The notes under the pieces were generated by a model. It worked only from the letters and a program-made list of their open reading frames with translations, had not been told where the DNA came from and ran no database searches. Positions 1 to 8,002 of a DNA stretch of 8,002 nucleotides are shown here, piece by piece. Location: assembly GCA_002715545.1 (NCBI GenBank), contig PAZI01000011.1, positions 13,268 to 21,269 of the forward strand, read 5' to 3'. Source of the DNA: Methanobacteriota archaeon (lineage in GTDB: Archaea; Thermoplasmatota; Poseidoniia; Poseidoniales; SP79). Within the stretch, counting starts at the first letter, position 1. Every line of letters begins with the position of its first letter. Made by a program: the position numbers and the translations under genes.

Positions 1-771
1 ATCACTGGCCCGAATGTTCCAAAGATGCTTGGGCTCGGAGGTGAGCAACTCTCAATTGATGATGGCATGATTCTTCCTATCGCTAGTCATCGTGGTTTGA
101 AAGTAATTTCAATGGCGTTTCTTCTTGAAGACGATGACAAACCTGTCGTGTGGCGTGGTCCTATCAAACTCGGTGCGATTCAGCAATTCATCGGAGATGT
201 AGCATGGGGCGAACTCGATTACATGATCATTGATTTCCCACCGGGAACGAGTGATGAACCTCTCACAGTTGCTCAGACGATAACTGACATTGATGGCATG
301 GTGATTGTATCAACTCCTCAGGAAGTTGCTCTTATGGATAGCCGAAAGGCAGCGGGATTCGCAACAACACTCAAGATTCCAATTCTTGGCGTTGTTGAGA
401 ACATGAGTGGCTATACAGTGAGTGGTATGATTATCGATGCTGAAGGTATTCCATTGAGGAAGACCCAAGTGAGTATTGATGCACCTGCTGGCATCACGCA
501 GAATGTGACGTCAGATGAAGATGGCAGATGGAGTGCAGTTCTAGATATATTCAAGCGCGGTGGTGCTGAAGAAGCAGCTCAACAACTTTCAGTTCCATTC
601 CTTGGTCGAATCCCCTTCGATCCAGGTGTTGTACGAGGTGGAGATGATGGGGTTCACCGTGTTTTAGCGGAGCCAGAAGGAACTACAGCTCTTGCCTTTA
701 GTTCGATTGTGGACAACATTCTCGAACAACTGGATCAATCAGCACCTTCCAGTGGCCCTGCAATTCTCTAA
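1..771 (+). CDS. Mrp/NBP35/ApbC-family P-loop ATPase, Fe-S cluster carrier (5' end missing, domain insertion)
   Basis: C-terminal 256 residues of an Mrp/NBP35 ATPase. The frame is open from base 1, and the first residues ITGPNVPKMLG match the family's post-Walker A region, so the P-loop and start lie outside the window. Visible family signatures are VWRGP (fragment residues 50-54), the switch/Walker B-like segment DFPPGTSDE (78-86), STPQEVAL, GVVENMSGY, DIFKRGGAEEAA, and PFLGRIPFDP followed by a GGDDG segment. In this family, proteins bind and transfer 4Fe-4S clusters as dimers using a CPxC motif just after ENMSGY. Here that motif is absent, and residues 139-181 are an unrelated insert, described separately. 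The fragment contains no cysteine at that site. The frame is intact on both sides, so this is not a simple pseudogene. The stop abuts the stop of the convergent cyclophilin gene with no spacer. Family assignment is firm; cluster-carrier function is uncertain because of the missing cysteines. Confidence 0.93.
   Translation: MTGPNVPKMLGLGGEQLSIDDGMILPIASHRGLKVISMAFLLEDDDKPVVWRGPIKLGAIQQFIGDVAWGELDYMIIDFPPGTSDEPLTVAQTITDIDGMVIVSTPQEVALMDSRKAAGFATTLKIPILGVVENMSGYTVSGMIIDAEGIPLRKTQVSIDAPAGITQNVTSDEDGRWSAVLDIFKRGGAEEAAQQLSVPFLGRIPFDPGVVRGGDDGVHRVLAEPEGTTALAFSSIVDNILEQLDQSAPSSGPAIL
415..543 (+). other. In-frame 43-codon insert replacing the CPxC segment of Mrp; carboxypeptidase-regulatory/Ig-like
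   Basis: The insert lies between the family motifs ENMSGY and DIFKRGG, where Mrp proteins normally have roughly ten residues containing CPxC. The inserted segment has the pattern VSGMIIDAEGIPL, then a V-S-I strand, then TSDEDGRWS. This follows the G-x-V-x-D-x-x-G-x-P-L ... T-D-x-x-G-x-W/F-S signature of CarboxypepD_reg and related transthyretin-like beta-sandwich domains found in surface proteins. At 43 residues it is shorter than a full domain of that type, so it would be an incomplete or minimal sandwich. Its base composition looks like the flanking gene. The similarity is judged from motif pattern only. Confidence 0.6.
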
Positions 772-777
772 TCATGT
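766..777. other. Abutting convergent stop codons (mrp / cyclophilin)
   Basis: The TAA of the Mrp gene (769-771) is directly followed by the reverse-strand stop of the cyclophilin gene (772-774), leaving no intergenic base. No hairpin or T-rich terminator is visible at the junction, so any transcription termination signal must lie inside the opposing coding sequence. Confidence 0.85.
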
Positions 778-1476
778 ATTCCATGCTTTACGAATACAGG
801 ACTCAATAGCAATATCATAATCAATTGTTTTTGGTATGATGGTGAGTATATGGACCTCAGGTCTCGGCCGATTACCTGCACCGCGGTTGAATTCAGAGAT
901 CTCTGTAATCTGGTCGAGGGATGCATTATCTGCAACTCTTCCAAACGGTACGTGGCTGTCATCAAGCACGCTGAAATCAGCTTTCTCACCTAACATCAGA
1001 AAGACAGAACCCCACGATGTGTTTCCATCAGTCCCGGTTGTCAGAACTCCAGGTCCATGATGTAGTGAAGGGGTATGGACTGGATGGACCGTCCAATTTT
1101 CAGGTTCACCGCCAATTCCGGTTCCATCGATGCCAGCATGGCCTCCAGTTCCATCTCCCTGTTCAAAATCACCTGTCGCTATGTACATCTCGGGAATGAT
1201 GCGATGCACGGGAGTTCCATCGAATTTTTCATTCTCGACGTGTGCGAGGAATGAAGCAACATGGTCAGGGCGTAACGGACACAGGTTGACATTGATACGT
1301 CCAATCAGGGAAGAACCTGCAGAGGTCCAGTTGAGTTGAATCGTTACCTGGGTTCCTGTCTTGATCTTTGATTCAATGTCCTCTACGTGAACCTCGGTGC
1401 TTGGATTCAATTGACATCCTGCAAGCATAGGTGTGAGCAAGACCAGCAGAAGCAGGGCTGAAATCGTCTGCTTCAT
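772..1476 (-). CDS. Predicted lipoprotein cyclophilin-type peptidyl-prolyl isomerase, 234 aa, altered active site
   Basis: Cyclophilins catalyse cis-trans isomerisation of X-Pro bonds. The ATG at 1476 is chosen because it follows a GGTGAT ribosome binding site by 6 nt and opens directly into a signal peptide: K2, hydrophobic 5-19, and lipobox L18-A-G-C21. The product is therefore probably exported and lipid-anchored at C21 on the outer face of the membrane. The cyclophilin core starts near residue 44: FDGTPVHRIIP (85-95), GDGTGG (107-112), HHGPGVLTTG, and LDDSHVPFGRV. Aligned to human CypA by eye, R55 (here R92) and H126 are kept, but F60, M61, Q63, F113 and W121 become M, Y, A, L and V. Activity may thus be reduced or the protein may act mainly in binding. 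The frame stays open upstream to 1596, but that part lies antiparallel to no other gene and simply overlaps the nadA 3' end, so it is not coding. The gene lies 7 bp after nadA and is probably cotranscribed with it. Confidence 0.87.
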   Translation of the reverse strand: MKQTISALLLLVLLTPMLAGCQLNPSTEVHVEDIESKIKTGTQVTIQLNWTSAGSSLIGRINVNLCPLRPDHVASFLAHVENEKFDGTPVHRIIPEMYIATGDFEQGDGTGGHAGIDGTGIGGEPENWTVHPVHTPSLHHGPGVLTTGTDGNTSWGSVFLMLGEKADFSVLDDSHVPFGRVADNASLDQITEISEFNRGAGNRPRPEVHILTIIPKTIDYDIAIESCIRKAWNT

Positions 1477-1482
1477 CAATTC

Positions 1483-1488
1483 ATCACC
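1483..1488 (-). promoter_or_regulatory. Shine-Dalgarno GGTGAT for the cyclophilin gene
   Basis: On the minus strand GGTGAT ends 6 nt before the ATG at 1476. It matches the archaeal 16S 3' end (SD consensus GGAGGTGATCC). The motif overlaps the last sense codon and stop (CGG TGA) of nadA, which suggests translational coupling and fixes the cyclophilin start. Confidence 0.7.
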
Positions 1489-2572
1489 GTAATTCAAGCA
1501 TCTGTTCAAGTGCCCTTCGAGCATAATCAGACGTTTCTTGTTCAACGGTGACTTGATTGAACAACTTTCCTTCAAGTAGGCTTTCAAGAAGTCCAAGTAG
1601 ATAGGGTGGCTGAATCATGTACATTGTTGAGCATGGACAGACTGAATCGTCAAGACATAACACGGTTCTATCCGAGTGAAGCTCGTTTAGGCGTTGGACT
1701 AAGTGAACCTCGGTCCCTACTCCTATGACATCACCAGGCTTCTGATCTGCGACCCAAGAACGGATGAATTCGGTAGATCCCACTGCATCAGCCATTTCGA
1801 CGACGGCATTAGAGCACTCTGGATGAACAACGACCTTTCCCTTTTCATGCTCCTCTCGGAACCGTTCAATCTGGTCAACACGGAACCGTTGATGCACTGA
1901 ACAATAGCCATGCCAGAGCAAGAGGTTCTTTCCTTCAATTTCCTTAGGTTTAGGAGGTGCCGCAGGATTCCAAACCATCATTGAGTCATGTGTCATTCCC
2001 ATTTCCAGTGCGGTGTTTCTACCAAGATGCTGATCCGGAATGAAGAGAACTTTTCCTTCTTCTCCAACTTCTTCAAAGGCCCATTTCATAGCAGTATGAG
2101 CATTTGATGAGGTGCATACTGTTCCCCCGTGACGGCCAACGAAGGCCTTGATTTCCGCTGATGAGTTCATGTATGTCACTGGAATCACGCGATTCTCAGA
2201 GAGTTGCGACCAAGCAGCTTCAACATCTGTCAAGGTTGCCATGTCTGCCATGGAACATCCAGCACGCATGTTTGGAAGAAACACCATCTGTTCATCTGAA
2301 GTGAGTATGTCTGCACTTTCTGCCATGAAGTGAACACCACAGAAAACAACGTGAGTCGCATTTGATGATCGAGCAAGTTGTGCAAGAAGGAAGGAATCCC
2401 CCGTCATGTCAGCATGTTGGATGATGGCATCACCTTGGTAATGGTGACCAAGAATAAGGAGGTCCTCACCCATTTTTTCACGAATCTGCTCAATCCTCTC
2501 TGCGATGTCTTCCTCAGGAATATTGGCGAAGTGAGCCATCGGATTGGCCTGGACTACGGGTAGGTTCAGCAC
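1484..2572 (-). CDS. nadA: Quinolinate synthase A (NadA), 362 aa
   Basis: NadA condenses iminoaspartate with dihydroxyacetone phosphate to quinolinate, the first committed product of de novo NAD synthesis, using a 4Fe-4S cluster. All family blocks are present: LGHHYQ (41-46), MAESADIL (83-90), CSMADM (106-111), YMNSSAEIK, CTSSNAHT, FIPDQHLGRN (177-186), WHGYCSVH, HPECSNAVVEM (250-260), GSTEFI, GVGTEVHLVQRL and CPCSTMYMI (312-320). Likely cluster ligands are C106, C253 and C314. The length fits the longer NadA subgroup. The first available start is a GTG at 2572, just after an in-frame TAG. An ATG at 2539 (residue 12) is an alternative, since the first 11 residues are not conserved family sequence. 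Neither start has a well-spaced ribosome site. No nadB, aspartate dehydrogenase or nadC lies in the window. It is head-to-head with bud32 across 33 bp and followed by the lipoprotein cyclophilin. Confidence 0.96.
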   Translation of the reverse strand: MLNLPVVQANPMAHFANIPEEDIAERIEQIREKMGEDLLILGHHYQGDAIIQHADMTGDSFLLAQLARSSNATHVVFCGVHFMAESADILTSDEQMVFLPNMRAGCSMADMATLTDVEAAWSQLSENRVIPVTYMNSSAEIKAFVGRHGGTVCTSSNAHTAMKWAFEEVGEEGKVLFIPDQHLGRNTALEMGMTHDSMMVWNPAAPPKPKEIEGKNLLLWHGYCSVHQRFRVDQIERFREEHEKGKVVVHPECSNAVVEMADAVGSTEFIRSWVADQKPGDVIGVGTEVHLVQRLNELHSDRTVLCLDDSVCPCSTMYMIQPPYLLGLLESLLEGKLFNQVTVEQETSDYARRALEQMLELR

Positions 2573-2605
2573 GTACTATTCGACCCTACCCTCACCTTTG
2601 AAGTC
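2573..2605. promoter_or_regulatory. Compact divergent promoter region between nadA and bud32
   Basis: Only 33 bp separate the GTG of nadA from the ATG of bud32 (66 bp if nadA begins at 2539). A weak TATA-like TACTATT at 2574-2580 is centred about 28 bp before the bud32 ATG, as expected for a leaderless archaeal transcript. Read on the other strand (AATAGTA), the same box would place a nadA transcript start near 2550, which would favour the 2539 ATG. The bud32 ATG has no Shine-Dalgarno, consistent with leaderless translation. The box is a poor consensus match and the assignment is inference. Confidence 0.3.
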
Positions 2606-3277
2606 ATGCAAATGTTGGACTGTGTCGTGACCCACATCTGGTCGGCAGAGGCCCCTCTCCATAGTGGTGCCGAGGCGCAAGTCATAGCCGGTATTTGGAT
2701 GGGTCGCCCAGCAGTTCTGAAGTACCGTCATCCTAGAACATATAGGCATCCAGAACTGGAGCGCCGGGTTGTTCGCTCACGCATGGCTGCAGAAGCCTCA
2801 ATCCTCCGCATCCTCCATGAGAAGGGGTTGCCGGTTCCTGAAGTTCTGGGTACACTACGTGAGGGAAGAATCATCATCTTGGAGCGGATTCAAGGAGGTC
2901 CTTTGTGTGAGGCTCTCGATCATGCAGGGCCTGCAGATGCTGCAGATTTACTTGAGAAGTTAGGAAGCTTGTTGCGATTGCTTCATGAACATGAAATCGT
3001 ACATGGTGATCCAACTACACACAATGTGATCGTTGGTCCGAATGACCTCTCACTTGTTGATTTTGGCTTAGCCCGCAGAGCTCCTGAGCTTGAACACCTT
3101 GGCCTCGATCTTCACGTATTGAAAGAGAGTCTTGATGCCCGCCATTCAGGACTTGAGGCAGCGATGAATAAAGTTCTATCAGGGTATGTCTCCACTTGTT
3201 CTGGGCATGATCCACTTGGCGTGTCTGTTGTTCGCCGATTCGAGAGCATCCTTGGTCGGGTAAGATATCACGGCTGA
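2606..3277 (+). CDS. bud32: Bud32/PRPK-type atypical kinase/ATPase of the KEOPS complex, 223 aa, stand-alone
   Basis: Bud32 is the small kinase-fold ATPase that works with Kae1, Cgi121 and Pcc1 in KEOPS to make the universal tRNA modification t6A in the cytoplasm. The sequence shows GAEAQV at the start of the fold (21-26), the invariant lysine in VLKYRHPRTYRHPEL (K39), which is the Bud32-specific signature, the helix C glutamate E63 in MAAEASIL, the catalytic loop HGDPTTHN (133-140, D135), the metal-binding LVDFGLA (D152), and a C-terminal LDLHVLKESLDARH block. The length is right for a free-standing Bud32. In many other euryarchaea the protein is fused to Kae1, but no Kae1 sequence lies in this frame or next to it. 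Two ATGs (2606 and 2612) could serve as start; the first is used. The gene is separated from the downstream pyrophosphatase by 79 bp. Confidence 0.94.
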   Translation: MQMLDCVVTHIWSAEAPLHSGAEAQVIAGIWMGRPAVLKYRHPRTYRHPELERRVVRSRMAAEASILRILHEKGLPVPEVLGTLREGRIIILERIQGGPLCEALDHAGPADAADLLEKLGSLLRLLHEHEIVHGDPTTHNVIVGPNDLSLVDFGLARRAPELEHLGLDLHVLKESLDARHSGLEAAMNKVLSGYVSTCSGHDPLGVSVVRRFESILGRVRYHG

Positions 3278-3344
3278 ATCAACGCCCCTGTCATCGGGTC
3301 GTGAATGTTGAATTAATGTGGGTTTGGAGCACCTTGATGTTGGG

Positions 3345-3350
3345 GGTGAT
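3345..3350 (+). promoter_or_regulatory. Shine-Dalgarno GGTGAT for the RdgB-type pyrophosphatase
   Basis: GGTGAT within a GGGGGTGAT run ends 6 nt before the ATG at 3357. This is the same motif and spacing as at the cyclophilin gene. It decides the start: the longer frame from a GTG at 3318 would add 13 non-conserved residues that overlap this site. Confidence 0.72.
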
Positions 3351-3356
3351 TCTCCG

Positions 3357-3944
3357 ATGTCTATGATTAGGAAGTTGAGATTCGTCACGTCCAACGTTGG
3401 TAAGTTAGCAGAGGCTCAGGATTTTCTCCTCTCAGCTGGAGTAACGGTTGAAGGGGTGTCTCGTGACATTATTCTACAGGTTGTGGAGCCCCAATCTCCT
3501 TCACTGAAGACAATATCCTCTTCAAAGCTTGAACAAGTGTTGAGCCTCTTTGATGATGATGGCGTGCCAACCTTTGTCGAAGATGCAGGACTGTTCATTG
3601 AGGCATGGGGTGGATTTCCCGGACCATTCTCCTCCTTCGCTCATTCAACATTAGGATGTTCGGGTCTCATATCGTTAATGCGAGGCCTATCCGATAGGCG
3701 TGCTCACTTCAAAGCAGTGATAGCTATGCATCTTGATGGACAAACTCATCATTTTGAAGGTCGCATTGATGGCAGCATTGCTCAGAGCATGGACGGGGAC
3801 GAAGGATTCGGCTTTGATCCAATCTTTATTCCAGAGGGTGAAGCGTCTACAATCGCCCGGCTAGGTGATTCATACAAACACCGTCATAGTCACAGAGCTC
3901 GGGCTTTAGAGAATCTTCTTCATCTATTGGTGCAAGATGACTAG
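3357..3944 (+). CDS. rdgB: RdgB/HAM1 non-canonical purine NTP pyrophosphatase, 195 aa
   Basis: The enzyme hydrolyses ITP, XTP and dITP to the monophosphates and pyrophosphate, keeping deaminated purines out of DNA and RNA. Signature blocks in order are FVTSNVGKLAEA (9-20; T-x-N-x-x-K substrate loop), VEPQS (43-47), FVEDAGLFIEAWGGFPGPFSS (73-93, with the catalytic aspartate D76), FEGRIDGSIA (133-141), GFGFDPIFIPEG (150-161) and YKHRHSHRARAL (173-184, with the base-binding SHR). The length is typical of the family. The start at 3357 is set by the ribosome site and directly precedes the first beta strand. It lies downstream of bud32 on the same strand, with a gap long enough to hold its own promoter, and is followed by the acidic membrane protein after 41 bp. 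No motif residue appears to be missing. Confidence 0.95.
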   Translation: MSMIRKLRFVTSNVGKLAEAQDFLLSAGVTVEGVSRDIILQVVEPQSPSLKTISSSKLEQVLSLFDDDGVPTFVEDAGLFIEAWGGFPGPFSSFAHSTLGCSGLISLMRGLSDRRAHFKAVIAMHLDGQTHHFEGRIDGSIAQSMDGDEGFGFDPIFIPEGEASTIARLGDSYKHRHSHRARALENLLHLLVQDD

Positions 3945-3985: not shown

Positions 3986-4846
3986 GTGGCGTCCGCGTTG
4001 CGCCTGATGGCATGGTTGACTTTCTTCGGGTCTACCTATGGTTACTTCATCTTCGTAGATCAGTCCAATGCTACCAATCTCGCCTATGGTCTGATAGGAT
4101 TAGCTCTTCTCAGTCTGGTCATTGCACTTCGACCGGGAAAACCAGCGTCCCCGCAACGCAGAACTCCCTCTCCCTCTTCCCCAGATAAGAGCAAAGATAT
4201 CCCCGCTCCTGTGCTCTCAGCCGAATCAGCAGCTGACAGTGCCGAACGCAAAGAAGATCTGATAGATGGTGCTGAATCAACGGTCGATTCAGATGCAATC
4301 TCACTTGGCGAAGATGAATCGGTAGTTCAGAGTGCAGAGGAAGAGTTCGAAGAAATCGATGAAGAGCTTGAGGAGGCCATACATCTGGCGGAGGAAGAGG
4401 AAGAAGAATCCATTCAGATTTCGATTGATGCCCGGCTTGAACGTAATGCTGCTATCAGAGAACGAGTTGAGATGAGGCGCCGAACACGCGTGTCACAACT
4501 TAGGGAGAATGAAGTACATCAGCGACAGATAGAAGATGCCCCCGATGAGGATCTCAATGCACTTGTTGCAGGTGGTCCGGACAATCTTGAAGTGATTGCT
4601 GAACCACTGCACTTGGACCCTGGTAGAGTTGCGGCGAGCACGCTTGTCAGAATCGATGAGCAAAGGGTCCTCAAAGTACGACAACCCGTAGATTCACTTC
4701 AGTTCCGAAAACCAGGTGAATCAACTGTGGAAGAATCTCCTGTCTTGGAGTTCTCTGAACTTGGTGACCTCCCACCGCCTCCGGCTCCAGATTCAGCCTC
4801 TGGCCGACTTGCTGCACTCAGGGATGAACGCTCCTTGGATGAGTGA
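3986..4846 (+). CDS. Hypothetical membrane-anchored acidic, coiled-coil-like protein, 286 aa
   Basis: I do not recognise a family. The N-terminus has two hydrophobic segments (about residues 7-24 and 32-48), which would form a helical hairpin in the membrane. A Pro/Ser/Lys-rich linker follows (50-75), then a strongly acidic stretch (about 85-142, densest at 117-142 with long Glu runs). Next comes a charged helix rich in Arg and Glu (143-185) that looks coiled-coil-like, then a more globular-looking part (about 186-230) and a tail with a PPPPAP run (253-258). Most of the protein would sit on one side of the membrane, probably the cytoplasm. The start is uncertain: GTG 3986 is used, ATG 4007 (residue 8) is an alternative that still keeps most of the first segment, and no ribosome site is evident. 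The frame is stopped at 3968-3970. The stop lies 1 bp from the stop of the convergent crotonase. It could be a scaffold or chaperone-like factor, but nothing shows this. Confidence 0.8.
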   Translation: MASALRLMAWLTFFGSTYGYFIFVDQSNATNLAYGLIGLALLSLVIALRPGKPASPQRRTPSPSSPDKSKDIPAPVLSAESAADSAERKEDLIDGAESTVDSDAISLGEDESVVQSAEEEFEEIDEELEEAIHLAEEEEEESIQISIDARLERNAAIRERVEMRRRTRVSQLRENEVHQRQIEDAPDEDLNALVAGGPDNLEVIAEPLHLDPGRVAASTLVRIDEQRVLKVRQPVDSLQFRKPGESTVEESPVLEFSELGDLPPPPAPDSASGRLAALRDERSLDE

Positions 4847-5787: not shown

Positions 5788-6561
5788 ATGGTGGAAATCG
5801 AATCAGAGGCTGAGCCCGAACCAGTGGTAAAGGCTGTCGGTCTTGCCAAAAGGTTCGGTTCATTCATTGCACTGCACCCTCTTGACGTGACAGTTCATTC
5901 GGGAGAATTCTTTGGCGTCTTTGGACCCAATGGTGCTGGGAAATCCACATTCATCAGGCTGCTAACTGGGCAGATCCCACCTTCTCGAGGCAGTGCGAGC
6001 GTTCTTGGAATTGATCCTGTGAGTGATTCCCGCTTGCTGAAAGCAAACATCGGTATTGTTCCAGAATCAGAATCACCCCCGTCTTTTCTTACTGCTCATG
6101 AATTTCTGACCATGGTGGCAAGATTGCGAGACCTTTCGGGTATTGATGAGATTGTAGAACATTGGTTGGATTTCTTTGGCATAACAGACAGAGCCAGGAC
6201 TTTGTGCAAAGACCTCTCGAAAGGTCAACGTCAGAAATTAATGCTCAGCGCCGCCTTGATGCACAAACCAAGGTTGTTATTCCTCGATGAGCCCTTTGTC
6301 AATCTCGACCCGCTCTATCAACGTAAATCGAGAGAACTGCTTGTTGATTATGTTGCAGCGGGTGGGACGATCTTCCTGTGCAGTCACATCCTTGAGATCG
6401 CCGAACGTCTATGTACGCGCTTTGCTGTAATTGATGAGGGTCGGGTCCTTGCACATGGCACTTTTGAGGACATAAGGAAATCAGGTGAATGGACATTAGA
6501 GGACGTTTTTATCCGTCTGGTTTCGGAAAGCAAACAAAATGTGTCTGAGGGAGATGAATGA
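5788..6561 (+). CDS. ABC transporter ATP-binding protein (ABC-2/exporter type), 257 aa
   Basis: Cytoplasmic ATPase subunit that would power the permease encoded immediately downstream. Motifs are complete: Walker A GPNGAGKST (46-54), ABC signature LSKGQ (143-147), Walker B LLFLDEP (163-169, catalytic E168), D-loop NLDP (172-175) and switch histidine in LCSHIL (H200). At the Q-loop the usual glutamine is replaced by glutamate (IGIVPESE, E93), as is seen in many drug/antibiotic-export-type ATPases. An acidic 14-residue leader (EIESEAEPEPE) precedes the fold. ATG 5788 is used; GTG 5791 is in frame and sits slightly better relative to the GGGGTGA just upstream. The stop overlaps the permease start (ATGA), indicating one operon and coupled translation. 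The substrate is unknown. Confidence 0.93.
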   Translation: MVEIESEAEPEPVVKAVGLAKRFGSFIALHPLDVTVHSGEFFGVFGPNGAGKSTFIRLLTGQIPPSRGSASVLGIDPVSDSRLLKANIGIVPESESPPSFLTAHEFLTMVARLRDLSGIDEIVEHWLDFFGITDRARTLCKDLSKGQRQKLMLSAALMHKPRLLFLDEPFVNLDPLYQRKSRELLVDYVAAGGTIFLCSHILEIAERLCTRFAVIDEGRVLAHGTFEDIRKSGEWTLEDVFIRLVSESKQNVSEGDE

Positions 6562-8002
6562 AACCCACCCAGTCTCTGATCGTCCCTGCATCAACTGTTT
6601 CTTCATTCAGGACGATTCTTGGCCTCATGCTGAAAGAGGAATGGCGACAGAACCTCGATAGGGCAAAACGTCGGCACCTCCTTCTCTTTCCAGTTGTGAT
6701 CATTGGCTTCACATCGATTCTTGTAATCGCCCTCCAGTTTCTTCTTGAAGGTGGGATTCCTGGGTCTGGCGGTGAAGCCAAAACCTTCACTTGGGATGAA
6801 ATCAAACGTTCGATACATCTTCCCATCTTTCTGTTTTCACTTGGTATGGGGGCATTCGCCTTTTTTGTACAAGATTCCATTGGTCGCAGGTCTGGTAGCC
6901 GCACAATGTTGATTCTGACTCCATTCTTTCATCCCTTGCGCCCGAACATCACCTATGCCGCCCACTATGTCAAAGAAGTCCTGTTTTACATTGGAATGAT
7001 TCTCATCCCAATGATGCTTGGTATGGGCTTGGGTCTGATTTTCAATACATTCGGTGATCTTGGTTCACCCCTACAACCACAGAGCATCCCTGTGACCTTC
7101 CTTGCTCTCTCTCTGACTCTTGCCCATGGGGTTGCCTTGTCGTTCGCCCTCACTTCGATAATCAGCCGAGGTGGTTGGTTGCGTTTGGTATCACCAATCT
7201 TGGTCATCGTTGTGGTTCTGGGGGTGTTAAGAGGTCCAATTCCATTGGACCAAGCTCTACCTGGACTTGCCTTCCAACTTGTTCATGACCCAATCTGGTT
7301 GTTTCTCGGCATAATGCAGACCGCTGCACTTGTGCTGATTGGAGCGACACTGCTTGAGATCACTGAACGAATCTCTACTTCGGAGCATCGACCATTATTC
7401 AACGCGGCATGGGCCGGCATACCTTTCTTCTCTTCAAGGACGCGTGCTCTCATCGCTAAGGAATTCGTGGACCTTGCTCGTTCAGGTGCACTGGTGAAGA
7501 TGACCCTCTCGTATTCGATTCCTCTGATTGTTCTTCTTCTTATTGCGACAGCAATCGATTTCACACAAGCTCCTATCCCCTTCAACCTCCTCTCCTATGC
7601 TCCCTTCCTCGGATTTTTTGGATTCAACTTCTATAGTTGGATCAATGGCATCGATCGCCCGGACCCCTATGATGTTCTTCCAGTGACAGTTCCAGATTTG
7701 ATTCGAATCAAAGTGATAGTTTATCTGATTGCAACAACTTGGATATCAATTCTCTTTCTGATGCTGATGGCCGAGCGCTTAGATCAATGGGGTGCCTTTT
7801 TTCCCGCTCTTATCGTGATGCTTGCTAATTCGGTTTATATCGTAGCATTGACAGCATTTTTGATGGGCCTTTCTCCAAACAAGGCTATTTTTGATGTTTC
7901 AATCATGGGTTGGTTCTATCTTTTCACAACCTTACCCTTGATGATGCTGTTCTTTCTCTCCTTCACCCAGGGGGATACTGGCTTGCTTGAGAATTGGTAC
8001 GC
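6558..8002 (+). CDS. ABC transporter permease with tandem ABC-2-like halves (3' end missing)
   Basis: The frame is open from ATG 6558 to the window edge (481 codons seen). It starts inside the ATPase stop (ATGA overlap), with a purine-rich GAGGGAG just upstream. By hydropathy I see six membrane segments in the first part (about 41-63, 87-104, 141-162, 178-201, 209-224, 245-268), then a cytoplasmic stretch to about 315, then five more (316-334, 344-361, 384-404, 413-437, 451-470). Each half opens with an amphipathic element ending in LKEEW or AKEFV before its first helix. After its second helix, each half also has a polar loop with a conserved-looking Pro (LTPFFHPL; LPVTVPDL) leading into the third. 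This suggests an internal duplication of an ABC-2-type unit, with a twelfth helix beyond the window. Specific family and substrate cannot be assigned. It probably forms an exporter with the preceding ATPase. Confidence 0.87.
   Translation, partial: MKPTQSLIVPASTVSSFRTILGLMLKEEWRQNLDRAKRRHLLLFPVVIIGFTSILVIALQFLLEGGIPGSGGEAKTFTWDEIKRSIHLPIFLFSLGMGAFAFFVQDSIGRRSGSRTMLILTPFFHPLRPNITYAAHYVKEVLFYIGMILIPMMLGMGLGLIFNTFGDLGSPLQPQSIPVTFLALSLTLAHGVALSFALTSIISRGGWLRLVSPILVIVVVLGVLRGPIPLDQALPGLAFQLVHDPIWLFLGIMQTAALVLIGATLLEITERISTSEHRPLFNAAWAGIPFFSSRTRALIAKEFVDLARSGALVKMTLSYSIPLIVLLLIATAIDFTQAPIPFNLLSYAPFLGFFGFNFYSWINGIDRPDPYDVLPVTVPDLIRIKVIVYLIATTWISILFLMLMAERLDQWGAFFPALIVMLANSVYIVALTAFLMGLSPNKAIFDVSIMGWFYLFTTLPLMMLFFLSFTQGDTGLLENWY

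Follow-up and report, generated by a model that had tools for sequence, protein, structure and literature searches.

In ATPases of the Mrp/NBP35 type, a CXXC motif holds a [4Fe-4S] cluster between two subunits, as stated in the available part of PMC6345978. Plant HCF101 binds 4Fe-4S, and the candidate cysteines listed for it in the available part of PMC5890173 form no CxxC. The DNA analysed here, called the window (8,002 nucleotides; Methanobacteriota archaeon of the Poseidoniales; GenBank assembly GCA_002715545.1, contig PAZI01000011.1, positions 13,268 to 21,269, forward strand), begins inside a gene of this family. Positions 1..771 (+ strand, frame +1, 5' end open) encode 256 residues, the C-terminal part, of an ATPase of the Mrp/Nbp35 type (Pfam ParA, PF10609) in which the CPxC segment is replaced by half an immunoglobulin-like (Ig-like) domain. 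The carriers Mrp, ApbC, Nbp35 and Cfd1 (PF10609; PDB 8zkc, 6g2g, 2ph1, 3kb1) have CPxC at the place where the window protein has the half-Ig sheet; the 256-residue frame contains no cysteine, and the C-terminal motif of the insert-type proteins is altered to GGDDGVHRI. Judged from its sequence, the window ATPase is a member of the Mrp/Nbp35 family that is not of the CPxC cluster-carrier type, and its canonical cluster site is lost.

The PF10609 match of the window frame was obtained in two stretches (E 4.7e-65; 219.9 bits, family cut-off 27.1); the start codon and Walker A motif lie upstream of base 1. A full-length relative, P0002 (342 residues, 97% identity to the window frame), has the Walker A sequence GKGGVGKS, and GKGGVGK of the deviant Walker A motif (GKGGhGK[ST]) did not vary among 33 aligned relatives, P0002 being one of them. 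In the same alignment the motifs on both sides of the replaced segment were kept: ENMSGY (397..414, + strand; E219, N220, M221 and G223 of P0002 invariant) directly before it and DIFKRGG (544..564, + strand; F270, K271, G273 and G274 invariant), with which the Mrp sequence resumes. With residue 138 the last of ENMSGY and residue 182 the first of DIFKRGG, the insert comprises exactly 43 residues, T139 to L181 (415..543, + strand), delimited and characterised by profile matches, fold prediction and gap measurement. A preliminary description of this DNA, made from the letters alone, had proposed that 43 in-frame residues replace the CPxC segment between these two motifs, within positions 391-570; place, size and content proved right, and the interval brackets the insert correctly. 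From 60 CPxC-type Thermoplasmatota Mrp loci fetched, the same gap measured 9 residues in 45/45 measurable ones (the gap pattern did not fit the other 15), and CxxC directly followed ENM in 59/60, the sole exception (L222) having the segment deleted.

Homologues were collected by a protein search (7,687 at E ≤ 0.001; best 120 examined) and by scanning a genome set with one representative per species (373 relatives; best 80 loci kept). All 120 best homologues carried an insert of 36 (83) or 43 (37) residues, and so did all 80 best loci (72 with 36 and 7 with 43 by pattern; L066 by eye); where named, these loci belonged to Poseidoniales, Poseidoniaceae, Thalassarchaeaceae, Marine Group II or a wider taxon. 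No close relative with CPxC and without the insert was seen in either set. An assembly chimera in the window was rejected, as the homologues share the junctions (80/80 best loci and 120/120 best homologues) and the 97% identical P0002 represents 23 members, which lie on 7 contigs; the probability of a chimera is practically negligible. CXXC was absent from 120/120 best homologues and from 78/78 parsed loci. Cysteines were counted in the 192 of 200 proteins and loci of this group, hereafter clade A, to which the core pattern could be fitted (78/80 loci, 114/120 proteins; 8 dropped): none was conserved, the best column holding 32 cysteines, and 133 sequences had no core cysteine at all. At the N-terminus of some insert-bearing Mrps, P0005 and P0017 among them, there is a long tail rich in His (SHPHSHGGHGDAHGHSHGD, EGHSHNHDHGG), which might bind metal.

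Twenty insert-type genomes were searched for a second, CPxC-bearing Mrp and none was found in any of them; each had one strong Mrp match (257-270 bits), interrupted by the insert, and all other matches were below 40 bits. In these genomes no CPxC paralogue therefore covers for the insert-type protein. Throughout the class to which Poseidoniales belong, an Mrp match at 1e-20 was obtained in 294/339 genomes; the 43 class loci read from genome searches (the first 20 being genes already among the best 80) had the insert in 42 cases, the remaining locus (L168) being cut by a contig end. The insert-type Mrp is thus a conserved, single-copy ATPase with nucleotide-binding motifs and without the CPxC site. 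The earlier idea of a domain swap that removes the cluster site is right as to the loss of CPxC; the change is neither local nor recent, being the conserved form of a whole group.

The window insert matched CarboxypepD_reg with E 3.8e-6 and 27.6-27.7 bits, below the Pfam cut-off of 32.3, and covered positions 1-41 of the 82 of this profile, that is, the first half only. Across the inserts the matched ranges were 1-41 and 1-43 of 82 positions or 12-53 to 12-56 of 83; Big_6 was matched by 33 and CarboxypepD_reg by 18 of 42 inserts. Modelled alone, the insert was predicted as four strands with a predicted local distance difference test score (pLDDT) of 90.6, and its fold neighbours were Ig-like. 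A single hydrophobic face was found in the inserts of clade A (41 rows) and in those of a second insert-bearing group, clade B, described below (70 rows, that is 70 of 86 inserts, one length class of the 78 matched). By profile match and predicted structure, the insert corresponds to the opening half of an Ig-like domain and forms a sheet of four strands that is hydrophobic on one side. It resembles Big_6, CarboxypepD_reg, Big_1, Invasin_D3 and MG4 of secreted proteins in sequence and in the predicted arrangement of the four strands, and differs from them in being only the first half and in lying within a protein of the Mrp family, which is cytosolic as far as known. The CarboxypepD_reg/Ig-like character noticed in the preliminary description was thus recovered by profile search (below cut-off, as given above) and by structure prediction; its extracellular-type module did not hold up, because a segment that stops halfway through the domain is no complete module. 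Two Asp positions of the insert are well kept (33/41 and 40/41 rows), as would be expected if residues other than cysteine let it bind a metal or a cluster; however, the alignment of inserts contains no conserved His or Cys, and the kept Asp and Gly residues fit ordinary Ig-like turns, which makes such binding very improbable.

Clade B was met outside the class of Poseidoniales, in genomes G082 and G170, whose Mrp has the insert and lacks CPxC. A protein search from G082 gave 86 relatives (P0121-P0206), mostly Thermoplasmatota where named, and CxxC was absent from 86/86. The insert was 35, 38 or 46 residues long in the 79 sequences measured; P0163 was cut short, the frame of P0175 was lost, and in P0168, P0189, P0190, P0196 and P0197 the insert was seen by eye. 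In the trees clade A (100/100) and clade B (100/99) both had high support and lay among the archaeal Mrps of the CPxC type. Forcing both into one clade cost 8.9 log units in a tree of 121 rows (approximately unbiased test, p 0.107) and 3.2 in a tree of 71 rows (p 0.414); as far as alignment and trees indicate, the insert of clade B either would share its origin with that of clade A or would have been gained independently at the same place. The suggestion that the segment might be a common Mrp variant loop is true only inside two Thermoplasmatota clades.

Loss of CPxC by itself has precedents and is not new. In the class of Poseidoniales a smaller set of HCF101-like sisters has an unbroken Mrp; of eleven that were read (L141-L151), CPxC is present in five, and the other six have TPPG...IFHIFG, a loop that lacks it; two cut pieces (L247, L248) and L327 group with these six. 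Scanning of L143 and L145 showed the HCF101 arrangement, a single chain made up of MIP18, ParA and DUF971. Among eight plasmid-borne Mrps read, the two CPxC-less ones were both from Bacteroidota (L350 of Bernardetia, L354 of Parabacteroides); like the window protein they have no CxxC after ENM, but they have a short unrelated loop (FTPAELPENKYY) and no Ig-like element. In the Thermoplasmatota Mrps L222 and L229 the CPxC segment is plainly deleted (ENMAGEIFGQGGG, ENMSGDVFGIGGG). Such short-loop proteins (2/8 plasmid-borne, 6/11 HCF101-like sisters, the deletions in L222 and L229) lend some weight to the idea that the half-Ig sheet is filler, i.e., that a disused cluster-site loop captured a small stable sheet while the role of the ATPase became independent of the cluster, as in other CPxC-less Mrps. 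The insert is also more variable than the rest of the protein (ratio of non-synonymous to synonymous substitution rates, dN/dS, 0.16 versus 0.05, from 3 pairs only). Against this, the insert is kept in 80/80 best loci, the same hydrophobic pattern occurs in two clades, and the second clade shares the origin of the insert or gained one independently at the same place; filler is considered a possible but doubtful explanation. A literature search yielded no description of an Ig-like element that replaces CPxC in the only strong Mrp of a whole group. Elsewhere among the homologues, P0208 is a fusion in which an Mrp with CPxC is joined to a hybrid cluster-associated redox disulfide domain (PF08984).

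A second alternative takes the insert-type protein for a cluster-free ATPase re-purposed to serve another target, in the manner of Thermococcus HypB in nickel insertion, with the half-Ig sheet as a docking surface. Those relatives of the ATPase-type HypB of Thermococcus (PDB 5aun, 3vx3) that were read, however, are about 245 residues long, lack the insert and are distant in the tree: the 27 insert rows fell among the CPxC-type archaeal Mrps, and the five HypB-like rows formed a separate clade (100/100). In addition, a domain of HCF101, DUF971, accompanies the insert-type Mrp, and re-purposing accordingly appears unlikely. Such short HypB-like Mrp paralogues (about 245 residues), without CPxC, were observed in other Thermoplasmatota (most of L119-L138).

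In 35/80 loci a same-strand DUF971 gene (PF06155) was located in the 700 bases that follow Mrp; in L298 the two genes are nine bases apart. By genome, DUF971 was found in 18/20 Poseidoniales and, fused to Mrp, in 6/6 HCF101-like genomes, and in 0/2 clade B genomes, 0/23 other Thermoplasmatota and 0/14 named controls. In a sample of the phylum (292 genomes) it was present in 81, namely in 76/77 Mrp-bearing genomes of the class and in five without an Mrp match at 1e-30, and in 0/176 Mrp-bearing genomes outside the class. With five HCF101-like genomes set aside, 72/72 insert-type genomes of the class had it, most of these being assigned by group, and G114 being placed with the HCF101-like genomes on the basis of L327. 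The function of DUF971 is called unknown and its CxCxxC motif is suggested to be metal-binding in the available parts of PMC7980591 and PMC11838916. All 40 stand-alone DUF971 proteins read, 37 of them matched by pattern and 3 judged by eye, had CxCxxC and, within a GCxxG motif, a fourth Cys, as had the 35/35 downstream neighbours, whose genomes are partly shared with the 40. In the fused proteins the fourth position was His in 3 with a CPxC-keeping ATPase and Ala in 5 with a CPxC-less ATPase; His is also found there in the solved DUF971 relatives 3luu and 2l6n. The four-Cys DUF971 protein is, by its motif, a candidate source of the "ligands from elsewhere" envisaged in the preliminary description. 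SufB/D was found in 20/20 and MIP18 in 19/20 Poseidoniales genomes. The three parts of HCF101 (MIP18, ParA, DUF971) are hence the same in Poseidoniales, but are separate genes; the three-domain chain itself was not found, P0002 being without MIP18 and DUF971 domains, and the HCF101-like group lacks the Ig-like insert, the insert-type ATPase standing outside that group in the tree.

The mechanism proposed combines these observations. Since the [4Fe-4S] cluster bridging two subunits normally sits on CPxC, the half-Ig sheet would lie at or near the two-fold axis of the dimer, at the former position of the cluster. Its hydrophobic face would be covered either by the sheet of the other subunit, the two halves closing one sandwich, or by a partner protein, and the ATP-driven dimer would then be held together and would signal through protein rather than through a cluster. 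The insert-type Mrp would still work in iron-sulfur maturation, providing the ATPase activity for a split HCF101-like set (Mrp, DUF971 and MIP18), the metal or cluster ligands having moved to the DUF971 partner with its motif CxCxxC...C, and the set may work with SUF. This combined reading, in which a half-Ig dimer or docking face goes with a split HCF101-like set bearing its ligands on DUF971, is inferred with a probability of about 0.38. Its most specific form, in which two half-Ig sheets close one sandwich in place of the bridging cluster while a trans-acting four-Cys DUF971 protein provides the ligands, so that motor and ligand would be products of different genes, is rather improbable.

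Several points weigh against the combined reading. No DUF971 gene was present within the downstream stretch in 43/80 loci (a further 2/80 lack room), none was detected among the eight further window frames scanned, and 2/20 Poseidoniales genomes gave no DUF971 match. DUF971 is restricted to one class, and the co-occurrence therefore counts as one event and not as 72; in clade B, where DUF971 was found in 0/2 genomes, the insert occurs by itself, and the two thus need not go together. The four cysteines may mean zinc only, because gamma-butyrobetaine hydroxylase has a related domain that binds zinc. Finally, A-type carriers, present in 18/20 Poseidoniales, could carry clusters without Mrp; elsewhere they were found in 1/2 clade B, 5/6 HCF101-like and 8/23 other Thermoplasmatota genomes.

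The remainder of the window was annotated as follows. The Mrp gene is followed at 775-3941 by genes for a cyclophilin (-), the quinolinate synthase NadA (-), a RIO/Bud32-like kinase (+) and Ham1 (+); many loci of Poseidoniales likewise have NadA, the kinase and Ham1 downstream of Mrp. An open frame at 3986-4843 encodes an acidic protein without a Pfam match at 0.001. A likely permease of the ATP-binding cassette (ABC) type, also without a Pfam match at 0.001, is encoded at 6558-8000 and adjoins an ABC ATPase (5788-6558).

A natural, group-wide form of Mrp with the ATPase but without the cluster site sets two roles of this family apart and makes the question of their relation testable. DUF971 gains a candidate role, as within the class the fourth residue of its metal site (His, Ala or Cys) varies with the state of the site of the ATPase itself. 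The Poseidoniales are widespread in the ocean, and their route of iron-sulfur maturation therefore bears on marine iron use.
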